This document shows positions 4,669 through 60,532 of a stretch of DNA of 64,000 nt, one piece after another. Source of the stretch: Candidatus Fermentibacterota bacterium (GTDB lineage: Bacteria > Fermentibacterota > Fermentibacteria > Fermentibacterales > JCC-6). The notes beneath the pieces were generated by a model. It had not been told where the DNA came from. It saw nothing but the letters and a program-made list of their open reading frames with translations, and did not search any database. A program made the position numbers and the translations under genes. How positions within the stretch are numbered: the stretch's first letter is position 1; the number at the start of each line of letters is the position of its first letter. Location of the stretch: positions 186,001-250,000 of the forward strand of contig WJMA01000017.1 of assembly GCA_014728175.1 (NCBI GenBank), read 5' to 3'.

Positions 4669-4767
4669 GTTCAGGTTCCCCCTGAAGATAAAGAGTGTAC
4701 GCAAGAACGTCGGGGTACAATAAGGCGGGACCCGGAACGCTGCAAGCCCGGAAGGAAATGGCCCGCG

Positions 4768-5763: not shown

Positions 5764-5821
5764 ACGACTATTGTTCTGAATTCTGAGGATCCAGGGACGT
5801 TTTTCCACGAGAGGAGGGGAA

Positions 5822-6535: not shown

Positions 6536-6601
6536 CAACCCGCAACGACGGCGGGCGGTCGGTTGTGCGAGCCGGAAGAACGATGGCCAGCTTCTGGGCG
6601 T

Positions 6602-7576
6602 CTAAATCGCCTCTGAGGCCAGGATCTCTTCGGCTATCTGTACTGCGTTGAGGGCTGCACCTTTCCTCAGATTATCCGCAGTGATCCAGAATTGGACCAC
6701 GTTGGCGTGGTGGGGATGGCGGCGTATCCTGCCCACGAACACCTCGTCCTTACCGGTGGCTTCCGAGGGGGATAAACCTCCGCTGGAAGCGCGCACTCCC
6801 GCCGTTTCGTCCAACACCGAGTACGCGTCTTCCGGATCTACCGGGCCCGCGAAGCAAACGGTTACCGACTCCGTATGTCCCACCGGTACCGGAACCCTGG
6901 CCGCCGCGGGGAACACCGGGAATTCCTGTCGTAGTATCTTGGCGGTCTCTCGGATCAACTTGGTCTCCTCCCGGCAGTATCCGTCATCCTCTGGAGTCCC
7001 TATCTCGGTGAGCACGTTTCGATGGTAGACGGGCGCCCCCTCGCTGCATTCCTCTCCGGCCTCCTGGCTGAACAAGTCCTCCATGGCCTGCCTGCCGGAA
7101 CCGGAAACGGACTGGTAGGTGGAGACACATACCCACTCGATCGGGGAAAGATCACTGAGCGGGGCGAGGACCATGACCAATTGAATGGTGGAGCAGTTGG
7201 GATTGGCTACGATCCCCTTGTGGCCTACCAGAGCGTGGGCGTTGACCTCGGGGACCACCAGGGGGACGTCGTCGTCCATCCTGTAGGCGGAGGAGTTGTC
7301 CACGACCACGGCGCCTTTCTCCACGCATTCGGGCACCCATCGCAGAGCAACCTCGGCCTCGGTCGCCCCGAGGAGTACGGTCCCGGGCTCTATGGTTTCC
7401 GTCTGCAGGCGCTCGACCGATACTTCCCGGTCACCGAGTTGGACGGTGGTGCCGGCGGAGCTGGCGGATGCGAAGGCGCTGATCCGGAATCCGTCGAATA
7501 CATTCCTTTGATGGATGATCTCCATCATCTTGGTACCGACCAGCCCCGTCGCTCCCACTATTCCGATGGATCCCAT
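6602..7576 (-). CDS. asd: Aspartate-semialdehyde dehydrogenase
   Basis: IGIVGATGLVGTKMMEI N-terminus, VANPNCSTIQL active-site Cys, RVPVPVGHTESV; translation begins at MGSIGIVG not at 8092. Confidence 0.95.
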   Translation of the reverse strand: MGSIGIVGATGLVGTKMMEIIHQRNVFDGFRISAFASASSAGTTVQLGDREVSVERLQTETIEPGTVLLGATEAEVALRWVPECVEKGAVVVDNSSAYRMDDDVPLVVPEVNAHALVGHKGIVANPNCSTIQLVMVLAPLSDLSPIEWVCVSTYQSVSGSGRQAMEDLFSQEAGEECSEGAPVYHRNVLTEIGTPEDDGYCREETKLIRETAKILRQEFPVFPAAARVPVPVGHTESVTVCFAGPVDPEDAYSVLDETAGVRASSGGLSPSEATGKDEVFVGRIRRHPHHANVVQFWITADNLRKGAALNAVQIAEEILASEAI

Positions 7577-7594
7577 CCGCACCGCCCTCCTTCC

Positions 7595-44508: not shown

Positions 44509-44739
44509 CTAGTCCTCTTCCTTGCCGGCCGCGGCATCTGGCTGCAGGTCTGCCAGTACTTCCTTAACGGTCATCTCCGTGTCCCGCAGGCGTTTGCGGA
44601 GCGATTTTATCAACTCTGCCGCCCGCTTGACCTTGCTCTCCAGCTCGTCTATGGGGCAGTCACTTCTTCCTATCTGGTCGACTATCCGGGTGAGCTCCTC
44701 CATCTGATCCTCGTAACGCTCTTCGCTGTCGTCGGTCAT
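44509..44739 (-). CDS. xseB: Exodeoxyribonuclease VII small subunit
   Basis: YEDQMEELTRIVDQIGRSDCPIDELESKVKRAAELIKSLRKRL; overlaps xseA. Confidence 0.93.
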   Translation of the reverse strand: MTDDSEERYEDQMEELTRIVDQIGRSDCPIDELESKVKRAAELIKSLRKRLRDTEMTVKEVLADLQPDAAAGKEED

Positions 44740-46172
44740 TCCACCTCTCCCGCCTTCTCTTCCGATACGTTTTCTACTCTGGTGGATACGCTACCGTCGG
44801 AAACGGTTACGTCCAACCGGTCACCCTCGCCTATCCCACTGACGCTTCTGACCAGCGTGCCGTCGGAGCGGCGAACCACGGACCAGCCCAGAGCCAGCAT
44901 GTCCTCCGGGCTCCTCCTGCGGACCTCCGATTCCAGCCTTTCCGTGAGAAGCCGCTGTTCGGAGATCCTCTGACGGAGAGCGCTCTCCAGCCTTTCCCCG
45001 AGGGAGTGGAGCCTTTGCCGTTCCATGTCCATCCTGCCCGCCGGAACCAGGTAAGCCAGTCGCTCCACCTCCGTGTCCACTCGTTTCTCCATCCCCCGGA
45101 TCTCCCCGGCGACGGAGTCGCCCAGCCGGTGGAGCAGGCCGTCCAGACCGGCCAGGTCCGTCCTGATCCCGATCTCTGTCAGTTCCCTCAGTCTTTCCGC
45201 CGTCGCCTTCAGCGATGACGACGCCCCGGCCAACCTGGGTAGGCAGATGCTTTGCAGGAGGGACGCCAGCGACTCCACGTCGGTCAGGAATCCCCCGACA
45301 TGATCGACCAGGAGGGAGGCGGCATGGGTGGGGGTCTTGGCGCAGGTGTGGGCCGCATAATCGGGAAGAGTGCTGTCTATCTCGTGTCCGATCGCGCTTA
45401 CCACGGGTCGTGGGCAGGCGGCCACCGCTGTTCCTATGAGCTCATCGTTCAGCCAGTCCAAATCGGCTTGTGAGCCCCCTCCCCTGGTAAGGACCACCAC
45501 GTCCAGGGGAGGATCGATGGTGGCCAGCGCTCTCAGGGATGCCCGTACGGTATCGGCGGCGTCCCTACCCTGCATCGACGCCCAGGAGGCGAATACCTCG
45601 AATGGGAGGTCACTCTCGTCGAGAGTCTTCAGGAAATCTTTGGCAGCGGCGGAGTCCCGGGAGGTAACCAGGCCCACCCTGAGAGGCAGAGAGGACAGCT
45701 CCAGGGAGGGATTCTTCTCCAGCAGACCCTCCCTGCGCAGACGGTCCAGAAGCTTCCGCAGGGCCAACGCGCGCTTGCCGGTGGTCCAGGCCGGGTCAAC
45801 CTTGATTACGTTGAACTGGTACCTTCCACCCCGGGCCCACAGGTCCACCCGACCCAGGACCCTTACGCTCATTCCCTCCACCGGATTGAACGAGATTCCC
45901 TCCCGGGCGAGATCCCTTACCACCTGAGCCTTGGAGCCGGCGAACAGCGCGCAGTCTATCGATGCCTCCGGGAATCCTCCCTCCACCGAGGGATCCACCA
46001 GCTGGAAGTACATGTGTCCCCTTCCGGTGACCCTGGGATTCCCGGAGATCTCTCCCCTGAGCCATACCGGATAGGGGAAAGCGGTTTCCAGCAGCTCTTT
46101 GACCCTTTGGTTCAAGGACAGAACGGTGTAATCGGTGCGGTGGTCAGTAGAGTTCGAGAAGGTATCCTCCAC
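44736..46172 (-). CDS. xseA: Exodeoxyribonuclease VII large subunit
   Basis: TVLSLNQRVKELLE..VWLRGEISG; LTRGGGSQADLDWLNDE; SAIGHEIDSTLPDYAAHTCAKTPTHAA. Confidence 0.96.
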   Translation of the reverse strand: MEDTFSNSTDHRTDYTVLSLNQRVKELLETAFPYPVWLRGEISGNPRVTGRGHMYFQLVDPSVEGGFPEASIDCALFAGSKAQVVRDLAREGISFNPVEGMSVRVLGRVDLWARGGRYQFNVIKVDPAWTTGKRALALRKLLDRLRREGLLEKNPSLELSSLPLRVGLVTSRDSAAAKDFLKTLDESDLPFEVFASWASMQGRDAADTVRASLRALATIDPPLDVVVLTRGGGSQADLDWLNDELIGTAVAACPRPVVSAIGHEIDSTLPDYAAHTCAKTPTHAASLLVDHVGGFLTDVESLASLLQSICLPRLAGASSSLKATAERLRELTEIGIRTDLAGLDGLLHRLGDSVAGEIRGMEKRVDTEVERLAYLVPAGRMDMERQRLHSLGERLESALRQRISEQRLLTERLESEVRRRSPEDMLALGWSVVRRSDGTLVRSVSGIGEGDRLDVTVSDGSVSTRVENVSEEKAGEVE

Positions 46173-46524
46173 CGGTTTCCCCGACGTCGTGTATAACCAG
46201 ATAGGCCGTTCCGGTGTACGGAGCGGTGAGCGTGAAGTCTTCCGGGCCTTCCCTGATCCCCTCGGCTATGGCGTGCTCTCTGGCGTAGTGGTAATCCTCG
46301 CGGTAGGGCAGGGACATGAATCGGTCGAGGTCCATCTCCCGGGATGCCACCACCAGGTCGAAGTCTTGTTCAGTACGGTCCAGATGAAGGATGACCCAGT
46401 AGTCAATGCCCTCCACCATGGAGACCGCGTATATGCAGGTGGCCCCGGGTTGGATGGTGTCCTCCGCCGAGAGCAGGGGGGAGGCGGAGGCAACGATGCA
46501 GATCGTAGTAAGGATCGGAGCCAT
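46144..46524 (-). CDS. Small secreted protein, pre-peptidase C-terminal (PPC)-like fold
   Basis: Signal-like N-terminus; DTIQPGATCIYAV..YWVILHLDRTEQDFDLVVAS..DFTLTAPYTGTAYLVIHDVGETGGGYLLEL. Confidence 0.6.
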   Translation of the reverse strand: MAPILTTICIVASASPLLSAEDTIQPGATCIYAVSMVEGIDYWVILHLDRTEQDFDLVVASREMDLDRFMSLPYREDYHYAREHAIAEGIREGPEDFTLTAPYTGTAYLVIHDVGETGGGYLLELY

Positions 46525-47037
46525 ATTACATCCTCCGGTAGGTTACGGGAGTAATCATCTGTACTGAGCCGGTCGCGGTCAAGCTCCCAAACCTCGTCGG
46601 GCGGGAAAATTCGGAGTGGATTAACCAATAATACACCATAATATGGTTAGTTAACCTTGGGAAGGAAGCGCACGAAGTTTAGTTTCCCATTCTTAAGGAG
46701 CACGAGGGTAGGTATTAAAGCATGATGTTTTAATACTATATTAAACTCGGCTATTCACAACCTCCAACAGATTATGTCCGCTTTATAGGCATTGGTTGGA
46801 TTGAGCGCATCTTTGCGGTCGCCGCGTTAGATGATTCTCGGCCATGTAGGGAATGGTAATGGGGTAAAGGGCCATCCCAAGAGAAAATAAATGAGCCAAC
46901 TATGCTTTCTCGGTAGTGGAAGACCGTTTTCTTTCCGGCACATTCGCGGTTCCTCTTCTTGTCAGAAGAACGTGTGGTTGCATACTTGTAGGTACCGGTG
47001 GTTATAGGATTCCCACCTCGACCGCGATGCACGGGAG
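46525..47037. other. Large AT-rich divergent intergenic region with palindromes
   Basis: 513 bp without a credible ORF, visibly AT-rich; 25-nt near-palindrome 46712..46736 overlapping a second inverted repeat 46727..46746. Confidence 0.7.
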
Positions 47038-48618
47038 ATGGAAATGACGAGAGATCTGGCGCCGGGAGACGTTGTGGCTAAGATCGATGACTCGGGAGTA
47101 ATTGTTCACCTGGGAGAAGACCTGCCTGACGAAGCCGGGGCTGAGAAGGTAAGGGCCGGAACGGGCGAGGGGCGCGAGGCGTACAGAAGAGGGCTGATTC
47201 TGGCCCTGGATCAGGCGGTAAGGAGGGCGTTTCCCACATCGCGGTTGTGGGTGGAGCATTCCATATCCCTGGGGTACAGATGCCGTCTGGAGAACGCTCC
47301 GGACCTTTCGGCCGAGGAGATAGTCAGGGTTCTTTCGGAGAACCTGAGGCGGGTGGTCAACGAGGACCTGCCCATAGAATGGGTAGAGGTTGACGGTGGC
47401 GAGGTTCCCTCCTCTTACGATGACCTCCCCCCATGGCGCGAAGGGAGAAAGCCGCTGATGCTCAACAAGCTGGGCGACAGCTGCACCTTCGCCATGGGTC
47501 CCTGCGTGCCCCGGACCCGCTGGCTGGGAACCTGGGAGTTAAGGCCCCAGCGGGATAGTTTCGTTCTCAGGTTTCCCGGGTCCGTCTCCTGGCCGGAGAT
47601 AGAGCCCTGGCATCCGCGCCCCAAGTTGTCGCGGGAGTTCGACATGGAGGAAAAGCACGGGGCCAGGATGCGGGTGCGGACGGTGAGTGAGCTGAACGCC
47701 AGGATCGAGGAGGACGGGGGCAGGGAGGTGGTGGTGATGAGCCATTTCTACCAGAACTACAAGCTGGTGGGAATGGTCAACGTGCTGGAGCGCGACTTCC
47801 CGGACAAGAGGATAGTGATGATAGCCGGTCCCTCCTCCAGCGGTAAGACCACCGTGGCCCGCCTGCTGGGAACCTATCTTAAAGCGATGGGCTTCGGTGT
47901 GTTGACGGTGAGCATAGACGATTACTTCAAGAATCGCACGGAGACTCCGGTGGACTCCGGAGGAAAAATGGATTTCGAATGCCTGGAGGCCATTGAGACG
48001 GACCTGTTTGCCCGGGACATACGAAGGCTTCTGGCGGGGGAGGAGATTAGGATTCCCACCTTCGACTTTCCCTCCGGCACCAGGCGGGAGGGGACGGAAA
48101 CGGTGAGTCTGGGAGAGAGGGATTTCCTGCTCATTGAAGGGATACACGGTCTGAACGACGAGCTGACCCCGGGCATCGACCCCTCCATCAAGTACAAGAT
48201 ATACGTATCCGCGCTTACCCAGCTCAACATCGATCGCCTGACCAGGATGTCCACCTCCGACAGCCGGTTGCTGCGGAGGATAGTCAGGGACAGCCCCAGG
48301 CGCGGCTACACCGCTGAGGAGACCATAGGCAACTGGCCGATGGTCAGGAGGGGGGAGAGGAAGTACATCTTCCCCTTCCAGGAGAAGGCGGACGTCATGT
48401 TCAACTCGGCTCTTCCCTACGAGCTGCCGGTCCTGAAGAGGTACGCCCTGCCGTTGCTGGAAGAGGTGACCGTGGGATCGTCGGCCTACCACACGGCCGA
48501 CCGTCTGCTGAGATTGTTGGATTGCGTCAGGACTTTGAACGAGTCGCTGGTTCCGGGTTTCAGTCTATTGAGAGAGTTCATAGGTGGATCTGCTTTCGAA
48601 GACGGGGAGGATGGATAA
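47038..48618 (+). CDS. Uridine-kinase-like nucleoside kinase
   Basis: IVMIAGPSSSGKTTVARLLGTYLKAMGFGVLTVSIDDYFKNRTETP; FLLIEGIHGLNDELTP; RRIVRDSPRRGYTAEETIGNWPMVRRGE. Confidence 0.9.
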   Translation: MEMTRDLAPGDVVAKIDDSGVIVHLGEDLPDEAGAEKVRAGTGEGREAYRRGLILALDQAVRRAFPTSRLWVEHSISLGYRCRLENAPDLSAEEIVRVLSENLRRVVNEDLPIEWVEVDGGEVPSSYDDLPPWREGRKPLMLNKLGDSCTFAMGPCVPRTRWLGTWELRPQRDSFVLRFPGSVSWPEIEPWHPRPKLSREFDMEEKHGARMRVRTVSELNARIEEDGGREVVVMSHFYQNYKLVGMVNVLERDFPDKRIVMIAGPSSSGKTTVARLLGTYLKAMGFGVLTVSIDDYFKNRTETPVDSGGKMDFECLEAIETDLFARDIRRLLAGEEIRIPTFDFPSGTRREGTETVSLGERDFLLIEGIHGLNDELTPGIDPSIKYKIYVSALTQLNIDRLTRMSTSDSRLLRRIVRDSPRRGYTAEETIGNWPMVRRGERKYIFPFQEKADVMFNSALPYELPVLKRYALPLLEEVTVGSSAYHTADRLLRLLDCVRTLNESLVPGFSLLREFIGGSAFEDGEDG

Positions 48619-50531
48619 TGAGTTACGTATTGCTGGTGCTGGCCCTGGTGGTTGCGCCCAGGCATCCGGTAGACAACGCCGCCTGGCGCAGGCCGCTGGT
48701 GCCCATGGGTCCGGTCGGTGGCGAGGAGCCCCTGCAGCACGATTTCGATGCCGTTCACTACGACCTGGATATAGAGGTCTTTCCGGAGCTGGAGGAGATA
48801 GAGGGCGTGACTACGGTCAGGCTGACTCCCGATGGGAGTACGATCAGCCAGATAAAGCTGGACCTGGTTCAGCTGGCGGTAGACTCGGTCTGGGACTCAT
48901 CGGGGCCGCTGTCCTACACCCAGGAGGGCGATTCCATAATCGTCGACCTGGGACAGCCTCTCAACCCGGGAGATACGACCGACGTCTACGTCTCTTACGG
49001 GGGAACCCCCTGGAACGAAGGTCCGGGCAGGTTCGGCGGCTTCTGGTTCCAGGTCTACGTCTTCTACCAGATGGGCGTGGGGATATACACCGACCCTCCG
49101 TCCGTGGGCAGGGCGATGTTCCCCTGCTGGGACCATCCGGCGGACAAGGCGACTTTCGACTTCCATGTAACCTGCGCCGATACCCTGTACGCGGTAGCCA
49201 ACGGTGATCTGGTAAGCATAGACCGCCACGACGGCAGGGCCGTCTACAACTGGGAGCTGGACCAGCCTATGTCCACCTACCTGGCGGCCATCTCGGTATC
49301 GGATTACACCGTGCTTACCGATTCCACTTACGACTGGATCAAGTACTACGTCTATCCCTGGGAGGTGGAGGACGCCAGGGGAAGCTTCGTGGACGTGGAC
49401 AAGATGATGGATCAGTTCGAGAGCCACTACGGGCCCTATCCCTGGAACTGCAAGTTCAGCTACGTCGAGACCCCCAAGGGCAGCATGGAGCACACCAGCG
49501 AGGTCTATCTCATCGCCTCCTCCATAAACGGGACGACCAACTGGAACCATCTTTTCGCCCATGAGATGAGCCATATGTGGTGGGGAGACTGCGTCACCGA
49601 GGCCGAGTGGTCCGACGTATGGCTCTCCGAGGGCTTCGCCACCTACAGCGAGGCGCTGTGGTCGGAGTACTACAGCGACTCGGCGTACACGGAGTACATG
49701 GTGGAGAACATCATGATACCCTACCTCCGCAGCGGTGAGACCTTTCCCCTGACCGCCCCGGGCGAGCCGTCGGAGTACTGGAGCTACACCACCTACGAGA
49801 AGGGGGCCAGCGTTCTGCACATGCTCAGGTACGTGTTGGGAGACACGAACTTCTACAACGCCCTGGCGCACTACTTCGACCACCATAGCTTCCGGACCGC
49901 TACCACCGTTGATCTGATGGAGCACATGGAGGTGGAGTACGGGGACACCCTGGACTGGTTCTTTGACAGCTGGGCCTACGGCGAGGGATACCCGATCTAC
50001 GACTTCGACTACTCCTGGCAGCAGTCCGGCAGCGACTGGGAGCTGACGATCGGTGTCGATCAAATCCAGAGCTTCTCCACGTTCTTCACCATGCCCCTGG
50101 AGTTCCTGGTCCTGGGAACCTCCATGGAGGACTCCGTGGTGGTGATGTGGAACGACGAGTGGTCCGACACAGAGACCTTCCTGCTGCCGTACGAGCCGCA
50201 GATGGTTCTCTTCGACCCCTACTACCACATCCTATCTACGGCTCTGCTGGGAGTGGAGGACAGTCCGACCCCACCCAGTGGGGGCACCAGGCCCATATCC
50301 ATACATCCGAATCCCACGACCAGCTGGGCGGAGATCGAGTGGACCGGGGTCGAGGACCGCAGCGGGTCGGTGCTGATCTTCGATCTCAGCGGCAGGCTGA
50401 TGATGGACAAAGATCTGGTCGGAGGGAGATGTACCATCGACGTAACCTCGTTGCCCTCCGGAACCTATCTTATAGAGGCCAGGGCGGAGGGCAATCTGCG
50501 CCAGGTCCACAGGCTGGTGGTAGTCAGGTAG
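48618..50531 (+). CDS. Secreted M1-family aminopeptidase-like protein with C-terminal T9SS type-A-like sorting domain
   Basis: HEMSHMWWGDCVTEAEWSDVWLSE = HExxH-x18-E; C-term ISIHPNPTTSWAEIEWTG..VLIFDLSGRLMMDK..LPSGTYLIEA..HRLVVVR. Confidence 0.9.
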   Translation: MSYVLLVLALVVAPRHPVDNAAWRRPLVPMGPVGGEEPLQHDFDAVHYDLDIEVFPELEEIEGVTTVRLTPDGSTISQIKLDLVQLAVDSVWDSSGPLSYTQEGDSIIVDLGQPLNPGDTTDVYVSYGGTPWNEGPGRFGGFWFQVYVFYQMGVGIYTDPPSVGRAMFPCWDHPADKATFDFHVTCADTLYAVANGDLVSIDRHDGRAVYNWELDQPMSTYLAAISVSDYTVLTDSTYDWIKYYVYPWEVEDARGSFVDVDKMMDQFESHYGPYPWNCKFSYVETPKGSMEHTSEVYLIASSINGTTNWNHLFAHEMSHMWWGDCVTEAEWSDVWLSEGFATYSEALWSEYYSDSAYTEYMVENIMIPYLRSGETFPLTAPGEPSEYWSYTTYEKGASVLHMLRYVLGDTNFYNALAHYFDHHSFRTATTVDLMEHMEVEYGDTLDWFFDSWAYGEGYPIYDFDYSWQQSGSDWELTIGVDQIQSFSTFFTMPLEFLVLGTSMEDSVVVMWNDEWSDTETFLLPYEPQMVLFDPYYHILSTALLGVEDSPTPPSGGTRPISIHPNPTTSWAEIEWTGVEDRSGSVLIFDLSGRLMMDKDLVGGRCTIDVTSLPSGTYLIEARAEGNLRQVHRLVVVR

Positions 50532-50533
50532 CC

Positions 50534-51511
50534 TCAGTCGGCGGGGAGTAGCCCCAGCAGGGAAGCCACCCGGCCGAAGACTGCGTCTGGACGCTCCACG
50601 ACTGCGGCTCCAGCCTCCTCCAGGAGCCGTCTCTTGGCGGAGTACGTGTCCGCCTCGGCCCGGACTATGGCCCCCGCGTGGCTCTGGGCCACGCCGGACT
50701 TGGTGAACTTCCCGCCCAGGAAGACCACCACCGGTTTGGTTATCTCACCGGCCGCGACCGCCCCGGCCAGGTCGTTCTCCTGCCTGGTCCCGGTCTCTCC
50801 GTAGACCGCGATTACCCTGGTCCTGGTGTCCGCCTGGAAGGCCCTGGCGGCATCCAGCATGGATACGCCGGGAACCGGATCACCGCCTATGCAGACCACC
50901 GCGGAGACCCCCGGAGGCTGCTCGCCCCAGACCGGTCCGTAGGTACCGTCGGGCCGGGGAGCTGGCAGGTGGGGGCGACAATGGAACGCGCCCAGAAGCT
51001 GGGAGAGGCCGCCGGAGCGGGAGATGACCCCTATGCAACCGGGCTGGTAGCTCTTTCGGGCCCAGCTGGTCCTTCCGCCCAGCATTCCGAAGAGGTAGCC
51101 CGAGGTGTCTACCATACCTACCGTATTGGGCCCCAAAAATTTGGCCTGGTGAGGCCGGGCCCTTTCCGCAACGACTATAGCATCGTGGGTGGGCACGCCG
51201 TCGGCCGTGACGACCAGGAACTTGATACCGGCCTCCAAGGCCTCCGATGCGGCGGAGAGAACCGCCCGCGCCGGGACGAAAAGAACCGCGGCGTTAAGGT
51301 CCGGGAAACGTTCCAGGGCCTCCGCCGCGTTGTCGAACACCGGAGTTCCATCCACCTCCTGGCCGCCCTTGCCGGGGGTACAACCCGCCAGGATCCTGGT
51401 ACCGAAGCCGGTCATCAACCGGGAGCTTCTTCTTCCCTGCCGCCCGGTCATGCCGAACACCAGGACCCGGGGCTCGGATATTCCGCACAGATGCTCCAGC
51501 AGACCGCTCAT
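50534..51511 (-). CDS. Succinyl-CoA synthetase alpha-like (ADP-forming acyl-CoA synthetase) subunit
   Basis: VLVFGMTGRQGRRSSRLMTGFGTRILAGCTPGKGGQEVDGTPVF; phospho-His region VAQSHAGAIV; ATGA overlap with upstream beta subunit. Confidence 0.88.
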   Translation of the reverse strand: MSGLLEHLCGISEPRVLVFGMTGRQGRRSSRLMTGFGTRILAGCTPGKGGQEVDGTPVFDNAAEALERFPDLNAAVLFVPARAVLSAASEALEAGIKFLVVTADGVPTHDAIVVAERARPHQAKFLGPNTVGMVDTSGYLFGMLGGRTSWARKSYQPGCIGVISRSGGLSQLLGAFHCRPHLPAPRPDGTYGPVWGEQPPGVSAVVCIGGDPVPGVSMLDAARAFQADTRTRVIAVYGETGTRQENDLAGAVAAGEITKPVVVFLGGKFTKSGVAQSHAGAIVRAEADTYSAKRRLLEEAGAAVVERPDAVFGRVASLLGLLPAD

Positions 51512-52995
51512 TGGGCCGTCTCCCATGGTATGCGCAGGTGGATCAGCAGTTCAGACTCCCCTTCCAGGATAGCGTGGGTCTCGCACATCAGACATCCGAT
51601 GCACCGGGCCTCGGGGGAGGGAACGATGGTTTGCCGTTCCCGGTCCCACTGCAGAAACCCGGTGGGACAGACGTCCACGCATCCGGGACGCTTTCCGTCA
51701 CATCTCTCGGGGTAGAAGTAGAAATCCCCGGGGGGATTTTCTACGCTGAAGACGGGGTCGCCGGGAGGGGGCGGAGGCGTATCGACAGCCTCCCTGGAGT
51801 CTACCGCGACCTCCGGTATATCGTCTACCATAGCGTTGGGGAACACCGTGGCCGGGTAATGTCCGACCTGTACGGGAAGGGAGGGCGATACCCGCTCGAA
51901 AAGGCGATGGGCCAGGTCCTCGTCCGTTCCGCCGAAACGCAGCAGCGAGGGAAGCGGGGTGGGGGACCCCCGCAGGGCCTTCCATACCGCCGCCGCCAGA
52001 TGATGCTGGTTCTGGAAGGCCATTCCGGATCCGGTCAGAAGCAGAACCTGCGCGTTCTCCTGAGAGAGAATCACCCTCAGTATGCGATAGCTCTTGAAGG
52101 CCGAGAGGCCGCCGGAGGTATCCGACTCGTTGAGGGCGTACAGGTCCCTTCTGTTCCCGGTGGCCATTTCCCAGAGCATCTTGCCCCCTCCGCCGCAGAG
52201 GTTGGTGGCCACCTTCCACGAGCCTTCCGGGGCCGGCTCTCGGTTCTGTCTGAAGAAGCCGGTTCCCGAGGGGTCCTGCTGGTTTATCCGCTCCACGGTC
52301 CTCTCCAGGGAGGTTAGATCGGAGGCTCTGGATGTCCGGACCCCGAACAGCGAGCTGTGGTCCTCGGGGACTGCGCGAGTCTCGTACTCGGCCCTGCAAT
52401 CCACAACCAGGGGGTTTCCGTCTTTGGTTACGCCTATGGGATTGACCTCCAGCACCAGCAGCTTGAACCTGCAAAAGACGCTGACCATGCTCTGAAGGAA
52501 CTCGCACAATCTTTCTCCCCCCTTGATCCGGGGAATGCTCTTCTCTATTCGGGCGGCCGAAGGGGGAGTTTGTAGCGAGAAATCGATCCTGACCAGGCTG
52601 TCGGCCCTCTCCTCGACGCCGCTGCCCCCCCTGGGGTTGAACAGAAGTAGCCCGCCCGCCGGACGGCCTTCTCCGCCCAGCTCCAGCGTGCAGGCGGCGT
52701 AGTACTCGGCGTAAAGATCTACGGGCTCGGTAACCAGGACCCCTTCCAGATTGGCATCTTCCGCCCTGCTCTGGATATCCCTCAGCCCGACCGATAGCTC
52801 CTCGGCTTCCTCGACCAGCCTGACCAGCCCCTTGCTCGCCCTGCTGGTGACTCCCGGGATCTGGGCCTTGAGGTAGGCGGGAACGGGCAAGGGCTGCTCC
52901 GGAGCCTCGCCCCGAGGCAGGAAGGTGCCCTTTACCATGGGCAGCTTCTCGGTTCCCAGCAGCTCCCTGGTTCTGTGTTCGGTCAGAGCGGGCAT
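51508..52995 (-). CDS. Succinyl-CoA synthetase beta-like subunit fused to C-terminal ferredoxin-like domain
   Basis: ATP-grasp/ligase motifs LLLFNPRGGSGVEERA, LLVLEVNPIGVTKDGNPLVVDCRAEYE, NESDTSGGLSAFKSYRILRVIL; C-term CDGKRPGCVDVCPTGFLQ..EARCIGCLMCETHAI. Confidence 0.87.
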   Translation of the reverse strand: MPALTEHRTRELLGTEKLPMVKGTFLPRGEAPEQPLPVPAYLKAQIPGVTSRASKGLVRLVEEAEELSVGLRDIQSRAEDANLEGVLVTEPVDLYAEYYAACTLELGGEGRPAGGLLLFNPRGGSGVEERADSLVRIDFSLQTPPSAARIEKSIPRIKGGERLCEFLQSMVSVFCRFKLLVLEVNPIGVTKDGNPLVVDCRAEYETRAVPEDHSSLFGVRTSRASDLTSLERTVERINQQDPSGTGFFRQNREPAPEGSWKVATNLCGGGGKMLWEMATGNRRDLYALNESDTSGGLSAFKSYRILRVILSQENAQVLLLTGSGMAFQNQHHLAAAVWKALRGSPTPLPSLLRFGGTDEDLAHRLFERVSPSLPVQVGHYPATVFPNAMVDDIPEVAVDSREAVDTPPPPPGDPVFSVENPPGDFYFYPERCDGKRPGCVDVCPTGFLQWDRERQTIVPSPEARCIGCLMCETHAILEGESELLIHLRIPWETAQ

Positions 52996-53013
52996 GGACG
53001 GTATCCTTCCATT

Positions 53014-54057
53014 CTAGAGTTGTTCCTTTCCTCGGGCATGCTCCTTCATCGCCCTGTCGGTTCTCCTTACGGCCCGGTGCCATTCCAGGCCCACCCCGGG
53101 GCTCAGGCCGTACAGGTAGTTGTACTCGGTGTAGCAGGAGGCGGTGCATGCCTGGCAGGGAAGCTCGGCGGTGGCTTTGAAAGCCCGTTCGAAGCCTACC
53201 TCCAGGGCGTTGAGCGCCTCGGGATACGTTCCGATAAGCAGCGAACAGGGATAGACCCTGCCGTCGACGTCCACGTTGCAGTAGGCCCGACCGGCCTTGC
53301 AAGATACCCCGTGGTAGGCCCGCTCCAGCCTGGTACGGGAGTAGTCCGGCCAGCCGGCCAGGCTCTCCAGGTAGCGAACGGAGTTGGCTATGGGGGCTCC
53401 GTTCCTCTTCATTCGGGACAGCTTCATCAGGGCTTTCGAGTACTCCTCCCGGGTGGGCATCATGGAGGAGGTGTCACCTCCCAGTAGCTCGTTGTGATGG
53501 AGGGTCTGGAAGGTGGTGAGGAATCCGTACCTATCGGCCGTCCGCATGATGTAATCCAAATGATCGAGATTATGTTTGGTCAAAACGGTTATGCTCCACA
53601 GCCTGATCCTGCCCGATGCCGTCTCGAACGCTCTGACGGCCTTGTCGAAACTTCCTTCCTCGCGGTTCGCGTCGTGAGCCTCCCGGGGGCCGTCGAAGGC
53701 CAGAACCAGGTGGTCGGCGTGGTCCATTATCTCCGGCCTGTCCGGCAGCAGGTATCCGTTGGTGTCTATGCTGACGTAGATGCCCAGTTTCCTCATGTGA
53801 CGGCAGAGCTCGACGATGTCCGGCCTGGTGAGAGGCTCCCCGCCCCAAACCCCGATTCTCTGGGTGCCGGCCTTCCTCATCTGGGTAATCAGGTCCATCC
53901 ACACCTCGGTGGACAGGTCGGGCCTGTTCTGCTCGGGTATCCGGCAGTAGGAGCACCGGCTGGGGCAGTGATCGGTTACGCTGGCCATCACGTTGAGCGG
54001 CCTTCTCCTTCCCAGCACCGCCAGGAGAGCGCCCAACCCCATCTTTAGCTGGCCCAT
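53014..54057 (-). CDS. Radical SAM protein with SPASM-like C-terminal cysteines
   Basis: SVTDHCPSRCSYCRIPE (CX3CX2C), GVWGGEPLTRPDIVELC; C-term CKAGRAYCNVDVDGRVYPCSLL...PCQACTASC. Confidence 0.9.
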   Translation of the reverse strand: MGQLKMGLGALLAVLGRRRPLNVMASVTDHCPSRCSYCRIPEQNRPDLSTEVWMDLITQMRKAGTQRIGVWGGEPLTRPDIVELCRHMRKLGIYVSIDTNGYLLPDRPEIMDHADHLVLAFDGPREAHDANREEGSFDKAVRAFETASGRIRLWSITVLTKHNLDHLDYIMRTADRYGFLTTFQTLHHNELLGGDTSSMMPTREEYSKALMKLSRMKRNGAPIANSVRYLESLAGWPDYSRTRLERAYHGVSCKAGRAYCNVDVDGRVYPCSLLIGTYPEALNALEVGFERAFKATAELPCQACTASCYTEYNYLYGLSPGVGLEWHRAVRRTDRAMKEHARGKEQL

Positions 54058-54062
54058 CAGGT

Positions 54063-55085
54063 TCACTCCGCACCATCCTCTGGAAGCCCCCTCCACTGGG
54101 GGCCATACCTGGGATCATCCATCCATCGTTCGGCTTCGGCCTTCTGGCCCAGAAGGCGGTAGGCGATCCGGTACCACAGCCTGGCACCCCTCTTGAGAGC
54201 GCCCATCAACGGACCGTCGGTCTTGGGCTCGGTTCTACGCCCCCTGAGAAGCCCTTCCACCCGGGCCACGAAGTTGGGTCTGGCCGGCTCGAACTCGTAC
54301 CTCGGGACCTTCTCCATTGGAGAAAGGCAGATCTCGCGGGGGTTCGGTGCGTCCCCCAGAACCCCGTCCGCCGAGGCAATGAGGGGGATTCGGGCGGGGT
54401 CGAGACCCATCACCCGGGCCAGGGAGGAGTCGATGGCCACCCTGTCCGTGGAGGCCGAGAGGAAGTCCGTACGCAGAGGCTTGCCGGGCTTGGGGCCTCC
54501 GCCCTCCAGACTTACCGTGCCGTCGGCCAGAGTAAATACGACGGGGACGGCCTTGTTCACCGCAACGGCGTAATCGGTCAGCCTGTAGTGGTAGTTGTGA
54601 CGGTTGTCGTCCAGGCAGCCGTACTGGTTCTTCAGGGCGATGGAAAGGACGGACCTGTAGTGCGTCTTCACCACCGGCAGGGAAACGACCGGCATCCGGG
54701 CGCACACCCGGGGAATGGAGAAGGACAAACCGTCCACCACGCGCTCTTCCCAGCTTTCCTTGGAGAAATCGTGCCAGACCAGTCCATTTCGATCGACCAC
54801 ATCTGCCATCCTAGTGTTGACCAACGCATCGGTAGCGTCCACCAGGATCTGGCTGGACTCGCCCACGTGGATCGTTCCGCAGTGCCCGGCCAGAACCCGG
54901 GCCACCGCGTCCACCACCCATGGTGAGGTTACCACGCCGGGACGGAGGTAATCCCAGGTCAGGTTGATCTTCAGCAGAACGTCCTGCCCCGCGGGAAGCA
55001 AAGAGGTGAAGTCCAGGGCCTTTAGCAAACGTTCGACGGACCGGAGCACACTAGGCTCGGGCTTGGTGTAAAAAACGTCCGACAA
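54063..55085 (-). CDS. DUF362 domain protein
   Basis: VLLKINLTWDYLRPGVVTSPWVVDAV..IHVGESSQ..MPVVSLPVVKTHYRSVLSIALKNQYGCL..LADGTVSLEGGGPKPGKPLRTDFLSASTDRVAIDSSLARVMGLDP. Confidence 0.9.
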   Translation of the reverse strand: MSDVFYTKPEPSVLRSVERLLKALDFTSLLPAGQDVLLKINLTWDYLRPGVVTSPWVVDAVARVLAGHCGTIHVGESSQILVDATDALVNTRMADVVDRNGLVWHDFSKESWEERVVDGLSFSIPRVCARMPVVSLPVVKTHYRSVLSIALKNQYGCLDDNRHNYHYRLTDYAVAVNKAVPVVFTLADGTVSLEGGGPKPGKPLRTDFLSASTDRVAIDSSLARVMGLDPARIPLIASADGVLGDAPNPREICLSPMEKVPRYEFEPARPNFVARVEGLLRGRRTEPKTDGPLMGALKRGARLWYRIAYRLLGQKAEAERWMDDPRYGPQWRGLPEDGAE

Positions 55086-55229
55086 GCTCGGAATCCCTTC
55101 TGCTGCAGTAGTGGATATTATACAAGCCGGACGAAGAGGTACAGGTCCACGCCCTTTCCGGGTATTTCCGGAAATGCTTGCGGTGGGATTTCGAGGCTGG
55201 AACCGGTGAGGAGGCGCTGCGTAGAGCTA

Positions 55230-55257
55230 TTGACACCAAATCCCCGAAAAGTAGGAT
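55230..55257 (+). promoter_or_regulatory. Strong candidate sigma-70 promoter
   Basis: TTGACA (55230-55235), 16-nt spacer, TAGGAT (55252-55257), about 30 bp upstream of start with GGGAGGT SD. Confidence 0.65.
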
Positions 55258-55287
55258 GTTCGAGAACCAAAACGATGGGAGGTAGGA

Positions 55288-55914
55288 ATGAATAAGTTGC
55301 TGGTTGTTCTGGGGCTCGTGATCCTCGTCGGGTCGGCCTATCCGGCTACGGTCAGAATCACCAACAACACCGGCGGGTACGACATCTGGTACGTTTACAT
55401 GTCCTCCACCTCCGACACCGACTGGGGAGGCGATTGGCTGGGTGACGAGATCCTGTACTCCGGTGAGACGTACTCTTTCACCGTTCCTGATGGCGACTTC
55501 GACTTCAAGCTGGTAGACGAGGACGGCGACGAGTACATTCGGTGGGACGTTCCGGTAAGCGGTACCTACAGCTGGAGCGTCACCCTGGACGATCTGGGGG
55601 AGGCCACCATAGGGAGTGGCTCCGGCGTGGCCCCGGTACCCGGTGGCTCGGCGCCGGTTACCATTGCCAACGAGTTGGGCGACTGGACCATCTACTACGT
55701 ATACTGCAGCCAGAGCTCTCTTACCACGTGGGGCGAGGACAGGCTGGGGTCGGAGATAATTCCTGCCGGTGAGTCCTTCACGTTCTACGTCCAGCCGGGT
55801 GCGGATTACGACATCCAGCTAGAGGACGAAGACGGCGACACTTACAGCAGGTTCGATGTACCGATGACGGACTCCGGCTACTACTGGGCGGTTACCCTGG
55901 ACGACCTGGACTAG
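55288..55914 (+). CDS. Secreted protein with two tandem copies of an approximately 85-aa acidic domain
   Basis: Signal peptide MNKLLVVLGLVILVGSAYPA; VRITNNTGGYDIWYVYMSSTSDTDWGGDWLGDEIL..SVTLDDL repeated as VTIANELGDWTIYYVYCSQSSLTTWGEDRLGSEII..AVTLDDL. Confidence 0.9.
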   Translation: MNKLLVVLGLVILVGSAYPATVRITNNTGGYDIWYVYMSSTSDTDWGGDWLGDEILYSGETYSFTVPDGDFDFKLVDEDGDEYIRWDVPVSGTYSWSVTLDDLGEATIGSGSGVAPVPGGSAPVTIANELGDWTIYYVYCSQSSLTTWGEDRLGSEIIPAGESFTFYVQPGADYDIQLEDEDGDTYSRFDVPMTDSGYYWAVTLDDLD

Positions 55915-55939
55915 AGGCGTCCGAAAGCTCGCATTGAGG

Positions 55940-55960
55940 AGGGCTCCATCGCGGAGCCCT
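55940..55960. terminator. Candidate bidirectional terminator hairpin
   Basis: AGGGCTCC-ATCGC-GGAGCCCT perfect 8-bp stem between convergent genes, followed by TCGCCTTATTTGCCTTTTC. Confidence 0.65.
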
Positions 55961-55965
55961 TCGCC

Positions 55966-56613
55966 TTATTTGCCTTTTCTTCCCACTCCCCGGTGAGGGC
56001 AGAAGTCGTCGAACACGCAGGACGCACAGGCCGGTTTCCTGGCGTGACAGACCTGCCTGCCGTGGAATCCCAGCTGATGGCTGAACGAAGTTCTTCGGGC
56101 CGGAGGGACGTGCTCGGCCAGGTCCCGTTCCACCAGGTCCGGGTTCTTCTTCCTGGTCAGGTCCAGTCTGAGGCTTAACCGCCGGACGTGGGTGTCCACG
56201 ATTAGCGCCGGCTTTCCGAAAGCTTCCCCCAGCACCACGTTGGCGGTCTTCCTTCCCACCCCGGGGATGCTCAGAAGCCCGGACATGCTTGGGGGCACTC
56301 TTCCTCCGAAATCCACCGCAACCCGCTCTGCGGCCCTCGCGACAGCCCTGGCCTTGTTCCTGAAAAAACCCAGGGGATGGACTATCCTCTCCAACTCATC
56401 CGAAGGCGCGTCGGCCAGCTCGGCGGGGCTTCCATAGCGGCTCCACAGCTTGGGGGTGACCTCGTTCACCTTCCGGTCCGTAGTCTGGGCGGCCAGGATG
56501 GTGGAGATCAAAAGCCTGAAGGGAGAGCCATCGTAGTCCAGCAGGCATCGGGCGTCCGGGTACAAGACCGGAAGCATCCCGAAGAGGTTCTCGAACCTCT
56601 GTTTCCTGGTCAT
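55966..56613 (-). CDS. nth: Endonuclease III
   Basis: LLISTILAAQTTDRKVNEVTPKLW; LLSIPGVGRKTANVVLGEAFGKPALIVDTHVRRLSLRL; Fe-S loop CHARKPACASCVFDDFC (CX6CX2CX5C). Confidence 0.95.
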   Translation of the reverse strand: MTRKQRFENLFGMLPVLYPDARCLLDYDGSPFRLLISTILAAQTTDRKVNEVTPKLWSRYGSPAELADAPSDELERIVHPLGFFRNKARAVARAAERVAVDFGGRVPPSMSGLLSIPGVGRKTANVVLGEAFGKPALIVDTHVRRLSLRLDLTRKKNPDLVERDLAEHVPPARRTSFSHQLGFHGRQVCHARKPACASCVFDDFCPHRGVGRKGK

Positions 56614-56710
56614 GGGGGCTCCGTCCCCGAATGGAGTTCTTGACGATCACCTGGAGGTCCAATCTAGTTGTATTGGAAACTTTGGCAACACCCTGGGACG
56701 GAGGATAAAC

Positions 56711-57274
56711 GTGTTGTCCCCAGACAGGTCTCGGGAGCGCATCCAAGGCGTCCTGAGATTGAAGCTACCCGCATTCGAGGACGGCAGGGGTCGGATGCTG
56801 GAGGCATTTCGGAGGGAATGGAAGGATTCGGTCTTCGGTGACGAGCTGCAGGTGAACTGCTCGTACTCCAAAGAGGGAGTGGTCAGAGGGCTTCACTTCC
56901 ACGTCCGACAGACCGATTACTGGTTGCCGATCCAGGGTAGAATGAAGATCGCGCTGTTCGACGTCAGACCTGCATCCCCTTCCCACCGGCTGTGCATTAC
57001 GATGAACCTGTCATCCGAAAAGCCGGAAGGCTTGCTCATTCCTCCCGGCGTGGCTCACGGTTTTGCCGCGCTGAGCGACCTGCATCTACTCTACGTGGTA
57101 AACCGGTACTACACGGGGGCCGACGAGTACGGCATCGCCTGGGACGATCCCGAGCTGGGCATCGACTGGGGCCTGGAGAGAGATCCGGTTCTCTCCGAAA
57201 GGGACCTTTCCAACACCCGCTTCGAGAGGATCGAGGAGAAGCAACTCGGGGAATGGTTCGGCTCGAAAGCCTAG
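56711..57274 (+). CDS. dTDP-4-dehydrorhamnose 3,5-epimerase-like cupin (RmlC family)
   Basis: GTG start with upstream GGAGG; GRGRMLEAFRREW; VVRGLHFHVRQTDYWLPIQGRMKIALFDVR; LIPPGVAHGFAALSDLHLLYVVNRYY. Confidence 0.8.
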   Translation: MLSPDRSRERIQGVLRLKLPAFEDGRGRMLEAFRREWKDSVFGDELQVNCSYSKEGVVRGLHFHVRQTDYWLPIQGRMKIALFDVRPASPSHRLCITMNLSSEKPEGLLIPPGVAHGFAALSDLHLLYVVNRYYTGADEYGIAWDDPELGIDWGLERDPVLSERDLSNTRFERIEEKQLGEWFGSKA

Positions 57275-57317
57275 GAACATACGAAAGGCTGCGGAGCCTT
57301 GGCCACCGCAGCCATGC

Positions 57318-57404
57318 TGGTACCGAAGGGGGGATTCGAACCCCCACGAGGTTGCCCTCACTGCGCCCTGAACGCAGCGCGTCTGCCAGTTCCGCCACTT
57401 CGGC
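57318..57404 (-). tRNA. tRNA-Leu (anticodon CAG), CCA encoded
   Basis: Minus strand GCCGAAG..CTGCG-TTCAGGG-CGCAG..variable arm GAGGGCAACCTC..GGGGGTTCGAATCCCCC..CTTCGGTACCA; all stems pair. Confidence 0.96.
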
Positions 57405-57514
57405 CCGATCGCTGCGCGATACTAGGTAGATGCCCCATTGTCGTCAATGCCCCCTGGTCCGATATATGTTTCGCACCACGGTATAGGTCTACGGCGGGAA
57501 GGGAATTGTTCCTC

Positions 57515-57976
57515 TTGAGCGGCGAAATCGTGGCCCGGAACAGGAAAGCCAGGTACGATTACGAGATAGTCTCCAGCCTGGAGGTGGGGATAGAGCTGCA
57601 GGGATCGGAGATAAAGTCCATCCGGGAGGGAAAGGTGAACCTGAAGGGTTCCTACGCCACCTTCGATTCGCGGGGTGAGCTCTGGGTGGTGGACATGCAC
57701 GTGGCGGAGTACGCCAACGCCCGGGACAACCATGTTCCGGACCGGCAGCGGAAGCTGCTCGCGCACTCCCATGAGCTCTCACGGCTGAGAAGGAAGGTGG
57801 AGGAGAAGGGAGTTACGCTGGTTCCTTTGGACGTGCATATGGAGAGGGGAAGGGCCAAGATCCAGTTGGGAGTGTGCAGGGGAAAGAGGCAGTACGACAA
57901 GAGGCGGGAGATAGCAAAAAGGGAGCAGCAGAGAAGGATGAGGGCGGCCATGAAAAGGAGCGAGCATGATTACTGA
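57515..57976 (+). CDS. smpB: SsrA-binding protein SmpB
   Basis: RNRKARYDYEIVSSLEVGIELQGSEIKSIREGKVNLKGSYA; GLVPLDVH-like VTLVPLDVHMERGRAKIQLGVCRGKRQYDKR; TTG/GTG start uncertain. Confidence 0.94.
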   Translation: MSGEIVARNRKARYDYEIVSSLEVGIELQGSEIKSIREGKVNLKGSYATFDSRGELWVVDMHVAEYANARDNHVPDRQRKLLAHSHELSRLRRKVEEKGVTLVPLDVHMERGRAKIQLGVCRGKRQYDKRREIAKREQQRRMRAAMKRSEHDY

Positions 57977-59117
57977 GCTTCTTGCGGTGCTCCTGATGAC
58001 TCTTCCGCAGGCTCGGGGTGAGTTACAGTTGTATCCCCGGCGGGACGGGCTGCTGCTGGAGCTGTCCGCCGACCGGCAACTCGATCCACGGGTGGAGGTG
58101 GACGGGTACGTTCTGAGGATCGAGCCTGGCTGCAGCATCTCACGACCGGACCTCGACCCCAGCATCTGGGTGTTGGACTACCGTCTCGCGGAGGACTCCT
58201 CCGGAATATCTGTATTGATGGATACCACCATAGCCTCCGTGGACTACGCCCTGAGCCCGGACAGCGCCACGCTGTTGGCCTTCATGAGGGCGGCCGAGCC
58301 CCTCGATTTCCCCAAGCTGGCCTGGGAGGGGCCTCCTCCGGACACCCTCGGCGAGACCCGGGAGGTTCCTACCTACAGCGATTCCCTCCTTCTGGCTTCT
58401 TTCGAGAGCGGCGCCCACTCTCCCTGGCTGGAGGAGTTCGACTGCATAGTCATCGATCCCGGGCACGGAGGGAGGGACCCGGGGGCCATCGGCCCCGGAG
58501 GGACCTACGAGAAGGACAGGACGCTGGAGATAGCCCTCATGGCCAGAGACCTCCTGAGCATAAGGATGCCGGAGCTTAAGGTGGTCATGACCAGGGAGGA
58601 GGACGACTACGTCTCCCTGGGGGAGCGAACCAGAATAGCCAACAGGGAGCACGCCGACCTGTTCGTAAGCATTCACTGCAACGCCAGCACCAACCGGACG
58701 GCGCACGGCTTCGAGACTTTCTTCCTCTCCCGGGCCAGGACGGACGATGCCCGGGCGGTGGCCGCCCTGGAGAACGGAGCGATAAGGTACGACGAGGAGG
58801 AATCGGTCCATCCCACCGACCCGCTTTCGTTCCTACTGGCGGACATAGCCCAGAAGCTGTACCTGGACCAGAGCAGCAGGCTGGCCGCGACCGTCCAGAA
58901 GTCCATGAAGGTGGCCAGGCCCGGAGCGAGTGACAGGGGGGTGAAGCAGGCCGGATTCTACGTGCTGCGCGGTGCCTTCATGCCCGCGATACTGGTGGAG
59001 GTCGCTTTCATATCCAACCACGATGAGGAGAGGCTGCTGCATACCCTTGACTTCCGTTACCGGCTGGCCGAGGCTATTGTCTCCGCGGTGATGGAGTACT
59101 CCGGAAACCGGGGCTGA
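57966..59117 (+). CDS. N-acetylmuramoyl-L-alanine amidase (Amidase_3)
   Basis: IVIDPGHGGRDPGAIGPGGTYEKDRTLEIAL; DLFVSIHCNAS; MPAILVEVAFISNHDEERLL. Confidence 0.95.
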   Translation: MITELLAVLLMTLPQARGELQLYPRRDGLLLELSADRQLDPRVEVDGYVLRIEPGCSISRPDLDPSIWVLDYRLAEDSSGISVLMDTTIASVDYALSPDSATLLAFMRAAEPLDFPKLAWEGPPPDTLGETREVPTYSDSLLLASFESGAHSPWLEEFDCIVIDPGHGGRDPGAIGPGGTYEKDRTLEIALMARDLLSIRMPELKVVMTREEDDYVSLGERTRIANREHADLFVSIHCNASTNRTAHGFETFFLSRARTDDARAVAALENGAIRYDEEESVHPTDPLSFLLADIAQKLYLDQSSRLAATVQKSMKVARPGASDRGVKQAGFYVLRGAFMPAILVEVAFISNHDEERLLHTLDFRYRLAEAIVSAVMEYSGNRG

Positions 59118-59142
59118 CGACCCTGGCTGGAAGGGAGCCGGC

Positions 59143-59727
59143 TTGAGCAGGATCCAGAGAGGGCTGTTGATCGAGCTCTGCATAGTGCTGGTCCTGGCCG
59201 CGGCAGTCGCCCTGGGATTAAAGGCCTTCAACAGGAAGCTGGGTCCGCAACCCTCCTCCCGGGACCGGGAACGGACCGAGGCCTATCCGGCTGCCGAGGA
59301 TACCCTGATGCTGCCCGAGATGGAGCCCGTGGTCCCCCGCGCCGACACCACGATGAAAAGCGGCCCGGAAACCTCTTGGGAGGCCACTCCCTGTTCGATA
59401 TTCACGTCGGTGGACCCTGGTCTTCTGGTGGATACCCTTCCCCAGGCCCCCGGGTCGGGCCGGCGGCCCTACGAGGCTCAGTTGATAGTAAGGAGGTGGG
59501 CCGAGGCCAACGGATTGTCCGGCGACCGGTTGGACGAGGTCTACGTTTTCAACCGCAGCGATACTCTCTACGTGGACGTTCCCATGCGGATGGACGTCTC
59601 CACGCTCAAGAGAACCGTGGAGAGCCGTTTCGTGTGCTTCACCCGTCTTTACCTCCTGGTCTCGGGCAACCTGCAGACCGGCCTGGAGGACGGGATCGCC
59701 CTCCGTGGTGTGCCCGGAGCGATATAA
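59143..59727 (+). CDS. GerM/GerMN-like single-TM protein
   Basis: N-terminal TM; YVFNRSDTLYVDVP..RTVESRFVCFTRLYLLVSGNLQTG..IALRG; position in amidase-murI operon. Confidence 0.5.
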   Translation: MSRIQRGLLIELCIVLVLAAAVALGLKAFNRKLGPQPSSRDRERTEAYPAAEDTLMLPEMEPVVPRADTTMKSGPETSWEATPCSIFTSVDPGLLVDTLPQAPGSGRRPYEAQLIVRRWAEANGLSGDRLDEVYVFNRSDTLYVDVPMRMDVSTLKRTVESRFVCFTRLYLLVSGNLQTGLEDGIALRGVPGAI

Positions 59728-59731
59728 CCGA

Positions 59732-60532
59732 ATGAGCGCCGACCCGATAGGCGTTTTCGATTCCGGCATAGGGGGCCTGACCGTGGTAAGGGCCATAAAA
59801 GAGCTTCTTCCGGCGGAGTCGGTGGTCTATTTCGGCGATACGGCCAGAGTGCCCTACGGGTCGAAATCGCCCCAGACGGTCGTCAGGTTCTCCCTGGAGA
59901 ACGCGGCCTTTCTACAGACGAAGCACGTAAAGCTCCTGGTCGTTGCCTGCAACACGGCGTCGTCGGTCAGCATGCCCGCTCTGGGAGAGAGGTTCGACAT
60001 TCCGTTCACGGGGGTGATTGAACCGGGAGTGAGGGCGGCCGCCGGTCTTACCAAGAATGGAGTGGTGGGCGTTATAGGTACCCTGGGAACCATAGGTAGT
60101 GGTGCCTACCAGAAGGCCCTGAAGAGGTACGAAGCCATATCCAGAGTGGTCGCCCAGCCCAGTCCGTTACTGGTTCCCCTGGTGGAGGAGGGTTGGCTGG
60201 ATCACCGAATTACCAGGGCGGTGGTCGAGGAGTACACGGCGCCTTTGGTGCGAGAGGGCATCGATACTCTGGTCCTGGGATGTACCCACTACCCCTTGAT
60301 AAAGAAGGTTCTGATGGACGTGGTTGGAGAGTCTGTGACCCTGGTCGACTCGGCCGAGGCCACGGCCTCCGAAGTATCCTCCATGTTGGAATCGAAAGGT
60401 TTGAGCTCCGATTCGGATAGGGGAGAGAGCAGCTACTACGTGAGCGACATTCCGTTGAAGTTTCAGGAGATAGCTCAACGCTTCCTGGGAAGGTCGGTTC
60501 CACTGGTGACCCAGGTGGAGGTGGGAGAATAG
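59732..60532 (+). CDS. murI: Glutamate racemase
   Basis: IGVFDSGIGGLTVVRAIKELLPAESVVYFGDTARVPYGSKS; VVACNTASS; LVLGCTHYPLI. Confidence 0.97.
   Translation: MSADPIGVFDSGIGGLTVVRAIKELLPAESVVYFGDTARVPYGSKSPQTVVRFSLENAAFLQTKHVKLLVVACNTASSVSMPALGERFDIPFTGVIEPGVRAAAGLTKNGVVGVIGTLGTIGSGAYQKALKRYEAISRVVAQPSPLLVPLVEEGWLDHRITRAVVEEYTAPLVREGIDTLVLGCTHYPLIKKVLMDVVGESVTLVDSAEATASEVSSMLESKGLSSDSDRGESSYYVSDIPLKFQEIAQRFLGRSVPLVTQVEVGE

Follow-up and report, generated by a model that had tools for sequence, protein, structure and literature searches.

A 64,000-nucleotide stretch of DNA from a Candidatus Fermentibacterota bacterium (the window; positions 186,001 to 250,000 of contig WJMA01000017.1, assembly GCA_014728175.1) encodes a two-subunit acyl-CoA synthetase whose SucC-like subunit continues into a ferredoxin-type tail (the SucC-Fer fusion). 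On balance, though with modest confidence, we favor a citryl-CoA synthetase-like enzyme acting with a separate lyase: the SucC-like/SucD-like pair would use ATP and CoA to activate citrate by way of a phosphohistidine, as do succinyl-CoA synthetase (SCS), citryl-CoA synthetase (CCS), and ATP-citrate lyase (ACLY), and the lyase would then split citryl-CoA into acetyl-CoA and oxaloacetate. Together they would replace ACLY or, in the reverse, ATP-forming direction, citrate synthase, while the one [4Fe-4S] cluster of the tail would regulate the enzyme by sensing redox state or oxygen, or would help to assemble, stabilize, and dock the complex. The proposed lyase differs among lineages—in Fermentibacterota, it would be a CitD-CitE fusion (CitDE) encoded elsewhere in the genome, and in Phycisphaerae and Myxococcota, a citryl-CoA lyase (CCL)-like protein of the citrate synthase family with its gene just upstream. 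Two unrelated citryl-type lyases are tied to the enzyme, one through the gene order of three genomes and the other through co-occurrence within the phylum, and this argues for a citryl-CoA product. From these sequence comparisons we infer that citrate is the substrate, which way the flux runs, and what the cluster does. The features of the two genes are as follows:

51508..52995, minus strand: SucC-like (large/beta) subunit with the ferredoxin-type tail at its C-terminus, 495 aa in a single unbroken frame
52366..52995, minus strand: ATP-grasp part (residues 1-210), by alignment with E. coli SucC
51796..52224, minus strand: CoA-ligase-like domain (residues 258-400), with invariant GGGGKM, NESDTSGG, TGSGM(A/G)FQ, and R353
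51511..51762, minus strand: ferredoxin-type tail (residues 412-495), by profile matches to [4Fe-4S] subunits in the PDB
51667..51669, minus strand: Cys443 of the CP motif, an invariant ligand by homologue alignment
51583..51603, minus strand: Cys465, Cys468, and Cys471 (C-x2-C-x2-C), invariant ligands by homologue alignment
50534..51511, minus strand: SucD-like (small/alpha) subunit (NCBIfam sucD E 3.5e-58, CoA_binding 6e-19, PDB profile 7e-63)
50915..50998, minus strand: insert of ~18 residues after SRSGGLSQ (QLLGAFHCRPHLP...PVWGE), near the acid-binding region
50678..50680, minus strand: phospho-histidine site QSHAGA of the SucD-like subunit, by alignment with E. coli SucD

Judged from its residues, the pair is a conserved, catalytically intact-looking SucCD-type enzyme. 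K43, E183, N185, and D199 of the SucC-like subunit correspond to K46, E197, N199, and D213 of E. coli SucC and are all invariant. Likewise, the phospho-accepting H283 and the stabilizing E244 of the SucD-like subunit (counted from a start at 51526) are invariant and aligned with E. coli SucD, the histidine corresponding to His246 in literature numbering. The pair has the residues expected of the SCS/CCS/ACLY superfamily, namely the ATP-grasp Lys, Glu-x-Asn-Pro, and Asp along with the phospho-His/Glu. The ATP-grasp part is weak in Pfam and clear in NCBIfam (1.7e-9), in a PDB profile (1e-21), and in Foldseek (E 3e-21 to SCS beta), which groups the AlphaFold model of the SucC-like subunit (pLDDT 83.6) with SCS beta, CCS, and ACLY. 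Neither subunit reaches the NCBIfam equivalog thresholds for SucCD (sucC, 37 bits against a cut-off of 370; sucD, 197 against 336).

The acid-binding side is where the enzyme approaches ACLY. The invariant loop segments and R353 of the SucC-like subunit align gap-free to the ACLY citrate loop and Arg; in particular, LLLTGSGMAFQNQ pairs with the ACLY citrate loop IIGGSIANFTN without a gap, whereas SCS requires one, at E 0.0027 for both. In the SucD-like subunit, SRSGGLSQLL aligns to ACLY, and KNYLPGCVGVISRSGGLSQLL scores 12.5 bits against ACLY compared with 1.6-5.3 bits against two SCS chains. The shared elements thus comprise GGG, (T/G)GS...F.N, R(F)GG, and SRSGG(L/M)S, and the proposed overall chemistry would be the same, but unlike ACLY the enzyme carries a ferredoxin tail and lacks a fused lyase domain (PF00285 is absent from both subunits in Pfam searches). 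With SucCD it has the fold, the ATP-grasp, and the phosphohistidine residues in common, and differs in its tail, in its acid-binding loops, and in coexisting with canonical SucCD in many genomes. A citryl-CoA synthetase followed by a lyase is a known two-step route in the reverse tricarboxylic acid (TCA) cycle (PMC5441870). The fusion enzyme resembles CcsAB of Hydrogenobacter, the synthetase of such a pair, in being of the two-subunit SucCD type, with both subunits aligning to 6hxq, and in adjoining a CCL-like gene in Phycisphaerae and Myxococcota; it differs by the ferredoxin-type domain, the small-subunit insert, low identity, and, in Fermentibacterota, the use of CitD-CitE rather than CCL.

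The enzyme is carried by uncultured anaerobes. In Fermentibacterota, a small phylum, the fusion is present in 31 of 42 genomes (24 of the 42 being high-quality, and the set including Fermentibacter, Aegiribacteria, and Sabulitectum) and, outside the phylum, in two Phycisphaerae, one Myxococcota, and one Riflebacteria genome. A tree of SucD places the whole fusion-associated family at a distance from canonical SucD and gathers the four sequences from outside Fermentibacterota into one clade (100/100). This clade sits beside Aegiribacteria with weak support (83/76), a placement that makes lateral transfer likely. A search of a plasmid collection gave no match, and literature searches found no description of a SucC-Fer fusion.

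In Phycisphaerae and Myxococcota, the genes around the fusion would suit citrate. In the Myxococcota genome (L043), the order is an isocitrate/homoisocitrate dehydrogenase-like gene, an HD-domain gene, a LeuC-LeuD fusion, LeuC, LeuD, a citryl-CoA-lyase-like gene, SucC-Fer, and SucD. One Phycisphaerae genome (L037) has the same type of order plus two upstream genes for a 2-oxoacid:ferredoxin oxidoreductase (KOR), and in the second (L038), LeuC, LeuD, and the lyase run off one contig while SucC-Fer and SucD begin another. The best NCBIfam models for the lyases of L037 and L043 are the PRK06224 citryl-CoA lyases, at 180-185 bits, the 185 standing against 111 for the top citrate synthase model, and in L037 this lyase is the sole PF00285 protein of the genome. 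Both genomes have an HD-domain gene within the operon of aconitase and isocitrate dehydrogenase genes (L037:4085-4660 and L043:4436-5011). L037 also holds two adjacent aconitase-like systems, a LeuC-LeuD fusion of 607 aa (4731-6554) and a split one (6557-8495), a pairing that suggests two different hydratase steps.

Within Fermentibacterota, a CCL partner of the citrate synthase family was set aside, as PF00285 is missing from 34 of the 42 genomes, and because most of the phylum lacks it we sought the lyase in another family, PF03328. Of the 24 high-quality genomes, 18 hold both PF03328 and the fusion and the other six hold neither (Fisher 7e-6, uncorrected for kinship), and on a tree built from the radical SAM gene that neighbors the fusion, each trait changes four times, on the same branches. 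Two of the six fusion-less genomes (G014 and G041) are also without any aconitase. This PF03328 protein fuses CitD to CitE, matching TIGR01588 at up to 3e-75 and the acyl carrier domain PF06857 at up to 8e-12. It is akin to citrate lyase CitDEF, from which the system differs in two respects: CitF occurs in none of the 42 genomes, and every CitDE sequence examined has Lys at the position of Ser14 of E. coli CitD, the prosthetic-group serine. With no CitF and with the carrier serine replaced, the citryl/CoA thioester would therefore have to come from another enzyme, for which SucC-Fer/SucD is a candidate. What looks like an operon (2206-7727 of L140, G000:C16:3000-18000; also in L141, L142, and L145) has citDE as its 3'-most gene. 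Its other products include proteins that begin like signal peptides or lipoproteins and bear 4Fe-4S motifs, as well as a DsbD_2 (PF13386) membrane protein and one predicted to be barrel-like. It is unusual to find exported ferredoxins next to a protein of the CcdA/DsbD type, and the combination may form a trans-envelope redox system.

Several observations weigh against a citrate-cleaving role. In the SucC-like subunit, Ala/Gly and Gln take the place of two citrate-loop residues of ACLY, Asn346 and Thr348, and whole-length sequence and fold scores for SCS equal or exceed those for CCS or ACLY. Both candidate lyases, the CCL-like protein and CitDE, score under their curated equivalog cut-offs; CitDE is unlinked to the fusion in Fermentibacterota, and in the Riflebacteria genome (L041), no CCL-like gene lies beside SucC-Fer and SucD. 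As for co-occurrence, all three independent pairs agree, but three pairs are too few for significance (sign test p 0.25), and the incomplete genomes G017, G018, G019, G020, and G027 break the association in one direction or the other.

The sequence-only reading took the cysteine-rich extension for a ferredoxin-like tail on a SucC/SucD-type synthetase, and conservation bears this out. All 28 full-length homologues keep the pattern CP...C-x-G-C-x2-C, in which Cys443 and Cys465/468/471 make up one complete [4Fe-4S] ligand set. A frameshift or assembly artifact was rejected, given a continuous frame and the same tail in relatives of four phyla and in 28/28 homologues. The domain searches that reading had proposed succeeded in part: the ATP-grasp region was recognized by NCBIfam, while single-protein Fer4 matches remained under the curated Pfam cut-offs (Fer4_7 E 0.0016), and it took a profile built from 18 tails to recover PDB relatives, namely 9mqx_E (2.2e-8), HycB4 (9.2e-8), and ArrB 6cz7_B (2.2e-7). 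An AF2 model of the isolated tail was of modest quality (pLDDT 76), and Foldseek returned nothing significant with it (best E 0.036, to Rpo3-type RNA polymerase and ferredoxin folds).

The nearest relatives of the tail are accordingly [4Fe-4S] modules of the HycB/DmsB/ArrB type, ahead of KorD. The tail matches their C-x2-C-x4-C-x3-CP plus C-x2-C-x2-C module, but is fused to an acyl-CoA synthetase and keeps only four Cys in most members. At least eight Cys are retained only in the two Fermentibacterota lineages that branch deepest, f2 and f3, both of family rank (L026/L055 and L027/L028/L058), and the window protein lacks the cluster-I cysteine set and with it the eight Cys of a two-cluster ferredoxin. 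The simplest reading of these alignments is a two-cluster HycB/DmsB-type module that would have lost one cluster in most lineages. Since one cluster with no second center is ill suited to electron relay, the lone cluster probably has a part in redox sensing, in assembly, or in docking.

A more specific form of the citrate proposal, which we regard as possible but doubtful, is a redox-gated citryl-CoA synthetase, in which the built-in [4Fe-4S] cluster would switch ATP-dependent citrate cleavage, or its ATP-forming reversal, on or off according to ferredoxin redox state, in company with a cofactor-free CitDE and no CitF. It would represent a third architecture for citrate cleavage besides ACLY and CitDEF, with built-in redox control of the switch between the oxidative and reductive TCA cycle. 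Citrate cleavage decides whether that cycle can run in reverse, and the genes for ACLY and CCS/CCL serve as markers of carbon fixation. Were the broader proposal correct, a two-gene synthetase with an iron-sulfur tail and either of two unrelated lyases would escape those markers, and would exemplify how ACLY-type systems are assembled from parts. Such a split ACLY-like system may be tied to the redox state of the cell; with an iron-sulfur center on an acyl-CoA synthetase, direct redox control of citrate flux would become testable in a single enzyme.

The pair could instead make malyl-CoA, citramalyl-CoA, or a related hydroxyacyl-CoA for a CitE-like (malyl-/citramalyl-CoA) lyase. Malyl-CoA lyase and RipC, a lyase of the itaconate pathway, do belong to PF03328 and rank second and third on CitDE, and SucCD-like malate-CoA ligases are known, with a weak PRK14046 match here. 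We consider this unlikely, however: CitE is clearly the top model for CitDE (253 bits versus 182 and 74), and the partner in Phycisphaerae and Myxococcota belongs to the citrate synthase/CCL family and stands among aconitase- and isocitrate-dehydrogenase-like genes, a setting that suits citrate.

In the sequence-only reading, the enzyme was an ADP-forming acyl-CoA synthetase drawing ATP from the acyl-CoA product of a KOR, an oxidoreductase to which the tail might dock or which it might sense. Several KOR-type enzymes are encoded in every one of the 42 Fermentibacterota genomes, L037 has KOR genes close to the fusion, and genus g4 has the fusion and no canonical SucC, so that the fusion could substitute there. 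The adjacency is confined to that single genome, however, and falls within a TCA-type operon. KorD did appear among weak genome matches of the tail, but a fused KorD was rejected as unsupported, since HycB, DmsB, and ArrB were found first and the Fermentibacterota KOR has a KorD of its own. Canonical SucC, moreover, is kept alongside the fusion in many genomes, including all four outside Fermentibacterota, so that replacement of canonical SCS is not general, and the acid-binding segments are unlike those of SCS. We therefore find no support for a special link to KOR and rate this explanation as quite improbable; a role in citrate metabolism, which that reading did not raise, fits the wider evidence better.

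Two further genes precede the synthetase in the window:

54063..55085, minus strand: DUF362 protein, 340 aa, TTG start, first in the run (PF04015 E 1.7e-29)
53014..54066, minus strand: radical SAM protein (PF04055 E 3e-20), with a CxxxCxxC motif and a partial SPASM/DUF3463 match

From 55085 to 50534, the open reading frame list gives a tightly spaced minus-strand run of DUF362, radical SAM, SucC-like, and SucD-like genes, just as the sequence-only reading described. Homology sets the radical SAM start at GTG 54066 (the frame itself reaches 54096) and the SucD-like start at ATG 51511 (the frame reaches 51526); with these starts, the DUF362 stop and radical SAM start overlap as GTGA, and the SucC stop and SucD start share the ATGA that had been noticed earlier. 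The top NCBIfam match of the radical SAM protein is the PTO1314 family, under the cut-off. DUF362 and the lactate racemase family share one Pfam clan, which we offer as a lead only (PMC11770544).

The four-gene order is conserved across Fermentibacterota, as had been anticipated, but does not extend beyond the phylum, where the fusion has other neighbors in place of radical SAM and DUF362. The radical SAM gene occurs in 38 of the 42 genomes, among them G014, G004, G005, G040, G041, and G027, in which no fusion follows it; DUF362 is missing from G040, G041, and G027, and an orthologue of it is found in the fusion-less G014, G015, G004, and G005. General coupling of the fusion to these genes was therefore rejected, and the earlier suggestion that they may mature the synthetase finds no support on the same grounds. 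That the enzyme belongs with them to a small pathway, acting for instance on their product with the citrate links incidental, is favored by the shared order within the phylum and is very improbable given radical SAM genes without the fusion, the missing DUF362 genes, and relatives elsewhere without either neighbor. We regard the two as conserved neighbors at a conserved chromosomal site, with a functional tie to the synthetase that is only putative.

The surroundings of the locus are conserved as well: the gene order at 44736-60532 of the window recurs in L046, L126, L127, and L128, and the retention of gene order around the locus argues for vertical inheritance within Fermentibacterota. This order, with gene names taken from reading the sequence rather than from a model search, comprises xseA, a uridine-kinase-like gene, an M1-peptidase-like gene with a C-terminal sorting-type domain, the operon, a small secreted protein, and nth; some genomes add an rmlC-like and an N-acetylmuramoyl-L-alanine amidase-like gene. 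The small secreted protein (55288-55914, plus strand) consists of two tandem repeats of ~95 aa (ITNNTGGYDIWYVYMS...DEDGDEYIRWDVP) and adjoins the DUF362 and radical SAM genes across Fermentibacterota, as also at L031:2402-3028, L126:3019-3642, and L127:2880-3506.

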